This document shows positions 16,780 to 19,737 of a stretch of 38,470 nt of DNA, piece after piece (positions within the stretch are counted from its first letter, which is position 1; every line of letters starts with the position of its first letter). Location: NCBI GenBank assembly GCA_021779935.1, contig JAJXZT010000061.1, positions 82,501-120,970 on the forward strand, written 5' to 3'. The position numbers and the translations under genes were made by a program. The notes under the pieces are model-generated. The model had not been told where the DNA came from. It saw only the letters and a list, made by a program, of their open reading frames with translations, and ran no database searches. The DNA is from Acidobacteriota bacterium (lineage in GTDB: Bacteria > Acidobacteriota > Terriglobia > Terriglobales > Acidobacteriaceae).

Positions 16780-17682
16780 TCAGCTCTTCTTCCCGGTCAG
16801 CTCGTTGTACAGCGTGTCGATCCATGCGTCCGAGTTGATGAAGCTTCCCGACCACTTTTGCCACGGCTCCATGATCTTCTCCTGCTTCATCTGCTCGACC
16901 GTCTTGCCTTCCTTGATCGCCTTCTGCACCGCCGCCCGCGTCTGCTCCAGCATGGTCACATAGTCCTTCAGGTCCTGCAGCGTTGAGAGATGCCCGTGGC
17001 CGGGGATGATCTTCACGTCCGCCGGCAGTTTCGGGATCATCGACTTGAACTCCGCGATCGTCCCCTCCACGCTGCCGCCCGCATTTAGATCGATAAATGG
17101 GAATCCATACGTCACAAACGTATCGCCCGTCGCCACCACGTGTTCCTTCGGGAAGAACACCACGCTATCGCCGTCTGTATGGGCGTGCGGATAGTGCACC
17201 ACCTTGATGTCGTCGCCATTCATGTGCAGGTCCACTTCTTTCGTGAACGTCATCTGCGGCAGCATGTCCGGCGCGGCCGGCTTGTTCTCGTGGATCACCT
17301 TCGTGATATACCCCGTCGGTCCGCCTTCCGCCAGCCGCTTGCGTACGTTCTCCTGCGCGATCAGCGTCGCAATCTTCCCCCAGTACGGATCCCCGCTCGT
17401 ATGGTCGAAGTGATAGTGCGTGATGATCACGAACTTCACCGGTTTGTCGCTCACTGTCTTCAGTTCCGCCTGGATCTTCTCCGCCAGGGGCATGAACTCG
17501 TCGTCCACCATCACGATGCCGTCGTCTCCCACCGACGCCGTGATGTTGCCGCCTGCCCCTTGCAGCATGTAGACGTTGCCCGACACCTTCTGCATCTTCA
17601 CTTGCACTTTGCTGAAATCGGTTTGCGCGGCACACAACGACGCCGCCATCGCTACACACAGCACGACCAGACCCTTGCGCAT
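16780..17682 (-). CDS. Secreted metallo-beta-lactamase-fold hydrolase
   Basis: A 300-residue exported protein with signal peptide (about 1-19, ending CAAQ). The MBL fold carries the zinc motif HYHFDH (89-94), a further His in HYPHAHTDGD (163-172), the bridging Asp in TGDTF (185-189) and a C-terminal His in IPGHGH (226-231). The set resembles class B3-like or quinoprotein-relay SoxH-type MBL proteins. Those hydrolyse various esters, lactones or beta-lactams, so a specific substrate cannot be assigned. The mature domain is about 280 residues, a normal length. The start has AAGGAA five bases upstream. It is transcribed alone. A dyad GGTTACC / GGTAACC (17782-17799) lies about 100 bases upstream, inside a possible promoter. 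Confidence 0.88.
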   Translation of the reverse strand: MRKGLVVLCVAMAASLCAAQTDFSKVQVKMQKVSGNVYMLQGAGGNITASVGDDGIVMVDDEFMPLAEKIQAELKTVSDKPVKFVIITHYHFDHTSGDPYWGKIATLIAQENVRKRLAEGGPTGYITKVIHENKPAAPDMLPQMTFTKEVDLHMNGDDIKVVHYPHAHTDGDSVVFFPKEHVVATGDTFVTYGFPFIDLNAGGSVEGTIAEFKSMIPKLPADVKIIPGHGHLSTLQDLKDYVTMLEQTRAAVQKAIKEGKTVEQMKQEKIMEPWQKWSGSFINSDAWIDTLYNELTGKKS

Positions 17683-17837: not shown

Positions 17838-19280
17838 TTAGTATCGTCTTGGAGGCGTGTCGAACACCTTCGTCATATCGTAAGGCGATACTTTGTAGAT
17901 CACAAAACTCGTTCCTTCCGGCCGAATATTGCGAAAAACGAAGTCCGCCCGCCCGTCTCCATCCGCATCCACTGCGTCCACCAGTCGCAACGCCGGAAAC
18001 GTCTCCAAGTCCAGCGGATCGCTCACTTCCGCGAAGATCGTGTTCACAATTCCATCCGCACTTTCTCGCAAAACCACCGTGACCGAATACGACCGCTGTA
18101 GCGCCGGAGCCGCGCTGGCAGCGGCTTCCGTGGCCATCGCGGCTTTCTCCGCCGCGTTGCCTTCCACCCATCCGCCCGTCTTCGCCGGTTGTTTTTTTGT
18201 TGCTTGCGTGACTGGCGCGGGAGCAGGAGTATACGTCGCCGTGAAGACAACTTCGGGCGAATTGCTGTAGTCGAGATCGTACGCGCGCACCGCGATATCC
18301 GTCAGCGGAATGTCTCCCTTTGCCGGGAGCGTGAAGTGCCGCAACGGTGCGGCCTTGCGCAGTGCGGCAATCGCGACCTTCCTCGCGTCAGCCGTCAATT
18401 TTTCTTTTTCCGCATCGGTCCACTCATATCCCAACGGACGATGTTCCATCGGATTCGGATCGGAAACAGCAACCATGTATGTGCGCGGGCCAATAATCTT
18501 ATCGGATTCTTCAGCCTTATCCTTGTCCCCAGGCCCACCCCGCGTCAGTCGTGGACGATTCGGATCATCTTCCTCAACCTGTTCGTTGGACCCCACGGAT
18601 TCCGCTGCCGGTTCCGTCGCTGGCCGGTGCAGATGTGGCCGGTCCGGATCATCCGTGTCCGGTGGAGGCGTGTCTTTCTTCGCGTCTTTGTCGGTCGGTG
18701 ATTTGTCGACCGTCGTGTCGCTCACACGGCCAGTCTTGGGATCAATCTTTACGTGCAGTTCTCCGCCCGACGTATCTCCAGTCTGTTGCCCTGAAGAAGA
18801 CGCAGTTGTGGTCGTTGGCTTGGCCGTGGTCTGCGGTGTCTGCAGGATTGGTTTTCCGGTATCAGAAAATGTGGCGGTCGACTGGGTGTGCAGCACCGGT
18901 TTCTTCTCGGCGGCAAGCACCGTCGGCTTCCAGAAACCTTCGCCCCACCAGGCGGCCCCCATTTGACGCGCACCATGCACCGTAAAGCGTCCGACCGGTG
19001 TGCCGGCATTCAGCGCTTCGTAAAGCGTGTCGGAATAAAGTGCCAGTGGGACCGGATTCGATTGATAAAACGTCGCGTCATAGTATTTGCCTTCGTACCA
19101 GAGACTAACCGGAATCAGGCGTGCGCCACCATGGGCGCCGACCTCCAGCACGGCAACTGCGCGGGGCCCTTTGTGTTGCTGGGGAGCACGATACTGCGCC
19201 CAGCCAGAGATCGCGAAAGTCAGCGCCGCCAACACTACCATGGCGCGAAAAGCCAAATTGCTGTATAGATTTGTCTTCAT
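17838..19280 (-). CDS. Secreted protein of unknown function with low-complexity middle
   Basis: About 480 residues from the ATG at 19280 (MKTNLYSNLAF), chosen because a signal peptide follows directly (hydrophobic MVVLAALTFAISGWAQ). The frame is open to 19340, but that would run into the divergent peroxiredoxin. The N-terminal part (about 30-120) has beta-rich sequence including ARLIPVSLWYEGKYYDATFY, which looks like a ligand or protein-interaction domain. A Pro/Thr/Asp-rich unstructured region spans about 130-250. The C-terminal part (about 250-480) has strands such as SPEVVFTATYTP, RSYSVTVVLRE and DADGDGRADFVFRNI, the last reminiscent of a calcium-binding FG-GAP/dockerin-like DxDxDGxxD loop. 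No enzyme motif is seen. Its start codon overlaps that of the divergent gene. Confidence 0.72.
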   Translation of the reverse strand: MKTNLYSNLAFRAMVVLAALTFAISGWAQYRAPQQHKGPRAVAVLEVGAHGGARLIPVSLWYEGKYYDATFYQSNPVPLALYSDTLYEALNAGTPVGRFTVHGARQMGAAWWGEGFWKPTVLAAEKKPVLHTQSTATFSDTGKPILQTPQTTAKPTTTTASSSGQQTGDTSGGELHVKIDPKTGRVSDTTVDKSPTDKDAKKDTPPPDTDDPDRPHLHRPATEPAAESVGSNEQVEEDDPNRPRLTRGGPGDKDKAEESDKIIGPRTYMVAVSDPNPMEHRPLGYEWTDAEKEKLTADARKVAIAALRKAAPLRHFTLPAKGDIPLTDIAVRAYDLDYSNSPEVVFTATYTPAPAPVTQATKKQPAKTGGWVEGNAAEKAAMATEAAASAAPALQRSYSVTVVLRESADGIVNTIFAEVSDPLDLETFPALRLVDAVDADGDGRADFVFRNIRPEGTSFVIYKVSPYDMTKVFDTPPRRY

Positions 19281-19737
19281 GGACGTCAACGACCACGCAC
19301 CTGATTTTAGTCTTCCCGACGAAAACGGTAACACGGTCAAATTGTCGCAGTTTCGCGGGAAAAATGTCGTGCTGTTCTTTTATCCCCGGGCCAACACTCC
19401 CGGCTGAACCATAGAAGCGTGCGGGTTCCGCGACGCATACACAAAACTACAGAAAGCCGGCTTTGTGGTTCTGGGCATCTCTCCTGATACTTCGCCAGCA
19501 CAGAAGAAATTTCAGGAGAAGTACGATCTACCCTACTCCCTGCTGGCTGACTCCGGCAAAAAGGTCGCCGTACTGTTTGATGTATTGAAAGAGAAAAACA
19601 TGTACGGCAAAAAAGTGATGGGAATTGCGCGCACGACTTTCCTGATTGGCCCGGATGGAAAAATTGTGCACGTGTTTCGCAACGTCAAGCCGGAAGGCCA
19701 CGCCGAAGAAGTATTGGCATATGCGAAAGAAAAGTAA
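19279..19737 (+). CDS. bcp: Bcp-type peroxiredoxin with probable selenocysteine at the active site
   Basis: A 152-residue thiol peroxidase of the BCP/PrxQ group if the in-frame TGA at 19405-19407 is read as selenocysteine. N-terminal part: NDHAPDFSLPDENGN (4-18), then VVLFFYPRANTPG (30-42). Codon 43, where every BCP has the peroxidatic Cys, is TGA. Directly after come TIEACGFRDAY, with the resolving Cys at 48 (peroxidatic + 5, as in E. coli Bcp), GFVVLGISPDT, KYDLPYSLLADSGKKVA, EKNMYGKKVMGIARTTFLIGPDGKI and a normal end. The frame is otherwise intact and the length matches the family (about 155). A SECIS-like hairpin starts nine bases after the TGA. The enzyme reduces hydroperoxides in the cytoplasm. 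A plain TGC-to-TGA nonsense mutation or sequencing error is the alternative. The ATG overlaps the divergent gene start and has no clear Shine-Dalgarno; a TTG at 19258 is another option. Confidence 0.85.
19405..19436 (+). promoter_or_regulatory. Selenocysteine TGA codon and SECIS-like hairpin
   Basis: TGA is at 19405-19407. A hairpin follows: GCGT (19417-19420) pairs with ACGC (19433-19436) and GCGG (19421-19424) with CCGC (19428-19431), leaving one bulged G (19432) and loop GTT. If the last G-C pair opens, the loop is GGTTC. The first loop G (19424) is 16 bases after the TGA. Bacterial SECIS elements lie just after the UGA, inside the coding region, with a G near the start of a small apical loop about 16-37 bases away. 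This one sits at the near limit of that range. Confidence 0.6.

Follow-up and report, generated by a model that had tools for sequence, protein, structure and literature searches.

A TGA codon at the peroxidatic position of an Acidobacteriaceae BCP/PrxQ peroxiredoxin gene probably encodes selenocysteine

Analysis of a 38,470-nucleotide stretch of Acidobacteriaceae DNA (the window) revealed a BCP/PrxQ peroxiredoxin gene at positions 19279–19737 of the forward strand, which encodes 152 residues if its in-frame TGA is read as selenocysteine (Sec). Frame reading and family comparison place this TGA, the proposed Sec codon, at the peroxidatic position, codon 43 (19405–19407, forward strand). Judged from sequence comparisons, the gene almost certainly encodes a Sec-containing peroxiredoxin, with the UGA decoded by SelA, SelD, SelB and tRNA-Sec together with a hairpin at 19417–19436.

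The translated frame starts with M, runs through PRANTPG-stop-TIEACGFR and ends with AKEK and a terminal TAA; the TGA is its single internal stop. The readthrough protein scored above the cut-off of the NCBIfam profile for thioredoxin-dependent thiol peroxidase (NF006960; 158.2 bits, cut-off 140) and of Pfam AhpC-TSA (141.5 bits, cut-off 26), and below that of the PrxU profile NF040737 (52.7 bits, cut-off 270). Passages of a published study give the BCP/PrxQ active-site motif as PKxxTPGCTxEAC (PMC8945050), and the window gene matches it as PRANTPG[TGA]TIEAC, with the Sec codon in place of Cys and Arg in place of Lys. Because of this published motif, the TGA can be assigned to the exact codon of the peroxidatic cysteine, and Cys48 (codon 19420–19422, forward strand, identified by translation and comparison with relatives) to its usual partner; Cys48 is thus the candidate resolving cysteine, and its codon also lies inside the hairpin stem. 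A preliminary description of the DNA had proposed a BCP/PrxQ frame that is whole but for a TGA at codon 43 in TPG-TGA-TIEAC, a cysteine kept five residues further on, and a gene that callers would split in two. Translation and the profile score bear out the first two points, and with translation table 11 the frame is indeed divided into ORFs at 19087–19407 and 19465–19737.

In the peroxiredoxin fold, the peroxidatic cysteine sits at the start of a helix. An AlphaFold model of the readthrough protein (mean pLDDT 90.8), built from an alignment of 16 sequences that included the window protein, likewise predicts a helix spanning residues 43–59 that opens at the Sec residue. The best structural match in the PDB was the BCP chain 9a4d_B (TMq 0.96; 9a4d is an integrative model entry), followed by 5enu (TMq 0.93–0.94) and then by Xanthomonas PrxQ.

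The peroxiredoxin start codon (ATG, 19279–19281) overlaps the likely ATG (19280–19278, reverse strand) of a divergent gene at 17838–19280, the overlap covering 19278–19281. For the 480-residue product of this divergent gene, searches of Pfam and NCBIfam at E 0.001 gave no match. Further along the reverse strand, the frame at 16780–17682 belongs to the metallo-beta-lactamase superfamily, scoring above the Pfam cut-off and below the cut-off of each of the 25 NCBIfam families listed for it. Within the window, Rfam gave no match at gathering thresholds and ARAGORN no tRNA, and a search against plasmid DNA returned only a single partial match.

Conservation of codon 43 was surveyed across the family: of 150 genomes, 142 contain at least one match at E ≤ 1e-30, and the best one per genome was taken. 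Exactly one in-frame TGA is present in 53 of these 142 genes, the window's included, and 89 are free of stops. All 53 TGA genes were read and all carry the TGA at codon 43, and they span many genera of the family. In the 39 of the 89 stop-free genes that were read, the same codon is TGC (36 genes) or TGT (3 genes), so that the 92 family genes read in total alternate between TGA and Cys at this single site.

The nearest relatives in a collection of named sequences are labelled Acidobacteriota, Terriglobales, Acidobacteriaceae, Candidatus Sulfotelmatobacter and similar. TGA occupies the site in 16 of the best 80 of 561 confirmed matches there, some of which may duplicate genomes of the family survey; one of these 16 records is a Candidatus Sulfotelmatobacter and two are labelled Gemmatimonadetes. 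In L184 and L199, from metagenome genomes labelled Gemmatimonadetes, the same TGA is followed by a similar G+C-rich stretch, as judged by sequence. A phylum-wide draw gave matches at E ≤ 1e-25 in 132 of 199 genomes, and among the matches listed at least seven from outside the family have one TGA, counted at any codon.

Downstream of the TGA, sequences and folds point to a candidate SECIS element within the coding region, the hairpin GCGUGCGG-GUU-CCGCGACGC (19417–19436, forward strand), proposed from folding and comparison. Its first base lies 9 nt from the TGA, and its apical loop GUU, with the G first (19425–19427, forward strand), is separated from the TGA by 17 nt. A small apical loop with a G is given as a feature of bacterial SECIS elements in passages of an earlier study (PMC1088965). 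In the window gene itself, a stretch of 38 nt folds with −11.5 kcal/mol, and the hairpin is modestly better than shuffled sequences (z −0.64 to −1.95 in four folding windows). Since a single gene's hairpin beats shuffles by so little, the case for the RNA element rests on the comparison of related sequences, for which the Cys genes serve as a control because they encode a similar peptide.

In this comparison, the mean folding energy of the 36 nt that follow codon 43 is −11.1 kcal/mol for 51 TGA genes and −7.5 kcal/mol for 39 Cys genes (p 8e-9, Mann-Whitney test on rows that are not independent). The main stem register comprises eight pairs, numbered from the T of the TGA as 0. Two lower-stem pairs are strongly biased to TGA genes, namely 13-30 (42/51 TGA versus 8/39 Cys genes) and 14-29 (44/51 versus 7/39). 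Other pairs are about equal or commoner in Cys genes, i.e., 12-31 (43/51 versus 33/39), 15-28 (44/51 versus 39/39) and 16-26 (40/51 versus 35/39), and the upper pairs 17-25, 18-24 and 19-23 are found in 51, 51 and 50 of 51 TGA genes versus 39, 36 and 29 of 39 Cys genes. As far as these sequences go, the stem discriminates TGA from Cys genes in part only. The loop G, which is the third base of codon 49, is present in 48/51 TGA genes versus 14/39 Cys genes, and TGA genes draw on a narrower range of synonymous codons, e.g., GCA at Ala53 and GGG at Gly49 (GGG in 93% of 46 TGA genes; GGC in 75% of 20 Cys genes).

Moreover, changes at different positions of the hairpin are linked in TGA genes. The Ser48 codon TCC occurs together with CGT at Arg51 in 9 of 11 TGA genes, a combination absent from the 33 genes with Cys48 (0/33); with TCC at codon 48, base 16 has base 27 as a possible partner in place of base 26, which leaves the third base of codon 51 bulged. 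Similarly, 4 of 5 TGA genes with GAG at codon 49 have TTT at codon 50, replacing a G-C by an A-U pair, versus 2 of 46 others. The Cys genes show no such link between codons 49 and 50 (7/16 with an acidic residue 49 versus 10/20 with Gly49, three other Cys genes being excluded).

The conserved hairpin could instead reflect codon bias or common descent, with Sec inserted via a differently placed element. The sequences are related to each other, several stem pairs are equally common in Cys genes, and three TGA genes of one genus (L117–L119) lack the consensus hairpin, all of which speak for this explanation; RNAalifold returned only three pairs on the 51 TGA rows, for which a count of individual pairs was more informative. 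The genomes of L117–L119 encode SelA and SelB, and these genes may have a SECIS of another form. We consider such an origin of the hairpin unlikely, as the bias of pairs 13-30 and 14-29 against the Cys-gene control and the coupling of codon 48 to 51 and of codon 49 to 50 among TGA genes argue against it, and favor the hairpin as the putative SECIS.

The window's genome (4.49 Mb, 99% complete) encodes the machinery that Sec insertion would use. The tRNA-Sec, located on another contig, scored 66.6 bits against a gathering score of 47 and was called by ARAGORN as tRNA-SeC with anticodon TCA; SelA (554.6 bits, cut-off 267.9), SelB (381.3 bits, cut-off 242.25) and SelD (L018, G000:C49; 360.5 bits, cut-off 125) are all above their cut-offs. 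A second match above the tRNA-Sec cut-off (L010) is a tRNA-Ser according to ARAGORN. The SelD frame itself holds one in-frame TGA at a likely catalytic position (KAAG-TGA-ASKLSP), with a strong hairpin downstream of it (−19.4 kcal/mol over 45 nt). Two further peroxiredoxin-like genes carry a TGA at what is, by eye, the matching place: L023 (G000:C13:16899-17273), with TGG-TGA-TQEM, and L030 (G000:C67:154503-154754), with TPV-TGA-TAQM. The genome may thus encode at least four selenoproteins, i.e., the window BCP, SelD, L023 and L030.

Across the family, SelA was found in 91 of 150 genomes: in 52 of the 53 with a TGA gene versus 34 of the 89 with a stop-free gene (Fisher p 1.7e-14, relatedness not corrected), and in 5 of the 8 without a peroxiredoxin match. 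SelA does not predict the TGA, because those 34 genomes without TGA have it as well. In the single TGA genome in which SelA was not found (G119), the gene probably lies in an assembly gap, since tRNA-Sec and SelB are present.

Readthrough of the frame alone leaves the inserted residue unspecified, and UGA might be read as another amino acid, through a reassigned code or a near-cognate tRNA. TGA is otherwise an ordinary stop in this genome: it ends 9 of 20 other window frames checked, including three that match a family (DNA-3-methyladenine glycosylase, PanB and a metallo-hydrolase), and also the SelA frame. These stops, the full Sec machinery, the hairpin biased to TGA genes, and the Cys found at the site in 39 of 39 stop-free genes read all argue against another amino acid, which we regard as very improbable, and for Sec.

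Both before and after the TGA, substitution patterns show purifying selection. In 9 of 9 TGA/TGA pairs compared, the region downstream of the TGA has dN values of 0.02–0.14 and dS values of 0.48–1.66; in comparisons against the window gene, 4 of 12 gave no usable downstream dS. Such a pattern would not arise behind a codon that simply ended translation. A nonsense mutation in a broken or decaying peroxiredoxin gene would also interrupt the frame and leave two short ORFs under table 11, yet it would have to be reconciled with a TGA shared at codon 43 by 53 family genomes from many genera, with the downstream selection, with a frame that has no other stop, and with the Sec machinery in the genome, and we judge it extremely improbable. 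A sequencing or assembly error turning TGC or TGT into TGA is untenable, because 52 other family genomes carry the same TGA, as do the 16 named-collection matches described above, some of which may be the same genomes. The preliminary description had called the gene a probable selenoprotein, had thought a random nonsense mutation at this codon unlikely, and had pointed to selA, selB, selD and the tRNA-Sec gene and to homologues with TGA or Cys at the site; these expectations agree with what we found, i.e., all four machinery genes in the genome, 53 TGA and 39 Cys (TGC/TGT) genes in the family, and purifying substitution downstream. Taken as a sequence-based assignment, this is very probably a real selenoprotein gene.

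Sec and Cys have been exchanged several times among these genes. With columns 43–54 excluded, a tree built from the proteins of 90 genes requires 8 Sec/Cys changes, 6 of them forced by well-supported branches. With 19 further genes added, a quick tree, which for counting was given its root on a single long outgroup branch (L177), has 11 changes, 4 of them forced by well-supported branches; at least 6 of the 11 run from Sec to Cys under equal costs. Some of the switches probably went from Sec to Cys, a direction that gene transfer could mimic. Two local cases stand out most clearly. The first is a pair of genes from two species of the same genus, L036 (1501-1953; TGC, Ser48) and L040 (1501-1953; TGA, Ser48), which have the hairpin in common and show 96% protein identity across 85 downstream codons; this is likely a recent change from Sec to Cys in which the SECIS was retained. 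The second is L060, with TGC, which is nested in three TGA genes of one genus and does not fold into the consensus hairpin.

The candidate resolving cysteine also varies. Among 51 Sec genes, 33 encode Cys at residue 48, and the other 18, which lack Cys48, encode Ser (12 genes) or Arg (6 genes); of the 39 Cys genes, 38 encode Cys and one (L036) Ser at this residue. In two further Sec genes that were read, it is Ser in one and Cys in the other. No cysteine is present in 9 of the 51 Sec proteins in the stretch counted (the 42 residues before the site and all residues after it), and therefore no internal selenenylsulfide is possible in these. The link between Sec and loss of Cys48 is not significant once ancestry is allowed for: of 6 independent pairs, on average 2.6 differ in the expected way, 0 in the opposite way and 3.4 not at all (sign test p 0.125–0.5).

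We lean toward a history in which the BCP of this family had Sec since an early ancestor and repeatedly returned to Cys, also within one genus with the SECIS hairpin kept, while many Sec lines lost the resolving cysteine, so that the 9 of 51 would have to work as one-selenol enzymes. If true, the clade would be a natural experiment on the benefit of Sec to an antioxidant enzyme, and it would speak against the idea that families of this type seldom change from Sec to Cys. In the parts of the 2006 survey consulted, 15 Sec-to-Cys events are counted in four families, and for Prx five Cys-to-Sec and no Sec-to-Cys events, with columns matched via the FdhA figures (PMC1794560).

From known families, we infer UGA decoding, peroxidase activity and a reductant for the window protein as follows. 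SelA and SelD would make Sec on tRNA-Sec, and SelB would bind the mRNA hairpin at 19417–19436 and bring the Sec-tRNA to the UGA at 19405–19407, sparing it from termination by release factor 2. In the resulting enzyme, Sec43 would attack peroxide and become a selenenic acid, which Cys48 would resolve to a selenenylsulfide; thioredoxin or a thiol system like it may then serve as the reductant.

Because the standard code splits the frame in two, automatic annotation may miss such genes or call them broken, and an important peroxide defence of these bacteria may go unnoticed with them. The clade around the window gene is well suited to studies of Sec/Cys exchange. Its close mixture of Sec and Cys forms, e.g., L040 (TGA) and L036 (TGC), offers ready enzyme pairs to ask why cells keep Sec, and such natural pairs could also be used to test whether Sec makes the resolving cysteine dispensable.

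Among known systems, the Cys-containing BCP/PrxQ enzymes (NF006960; PDB 9a4d, 5enu, 5iiz) share with the window protein the fold, the length, the motif and the Cys five residues past the peroxidatic residue, whereas in the window gene the proposed Sec codon takes the place of the codon for the peroxidatic Cys. For Cys-45/Cys-50 of E. coli BCP, we found no relevant paper in the open-licence literature. PrxU of Eubacterium acidaminophilum was reportedly described by Sohling in 2001. Like the window protein, PrxU (NF040737) is a peroxiredoxin with an active-site Sec, according to passages of two papers (PMC13188914, PMC9312934), but it represents a different subfamily, whose 233-position profile has a cut-off that the window protein does not reach.

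Sec-containing Prx of the COG1225 (Bcp) type with the motif TxxU appears as a bacterial selenoprotein family in the consulted portions of PMC9312934 and PMC1088965, the latter with 43 Sargasso Sea genes, and because Sec-Prx of this type is already published, the window gene belongs to an established kind of selenoprotein. The 2006 survey, in the part consulted, gives 3 selenoprotein families and 4 selenoproteins for Acidobacteria (PMC1794560), among which Prx may be included. No paper on a Sec-BCP in Terriglobales was found among the open-licence papers listed, by title, beginning of abstract or passages. Published Sec-Prx and the window gene have in common the Sec at the BCP peroxidatic position, here TPGU, and a SECIS-like hairpin just downstream, as far as passages of the three papers describe (PMC9312934, PMC1088965, PMC13188914). 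In contrast to these passages, which make no mention of Terriglobales, the Sec-BCP genes described here come from the window's family, in which Cys48 is absent from those 18 of 51 Sec members and Sec and Cys have frequently switched.
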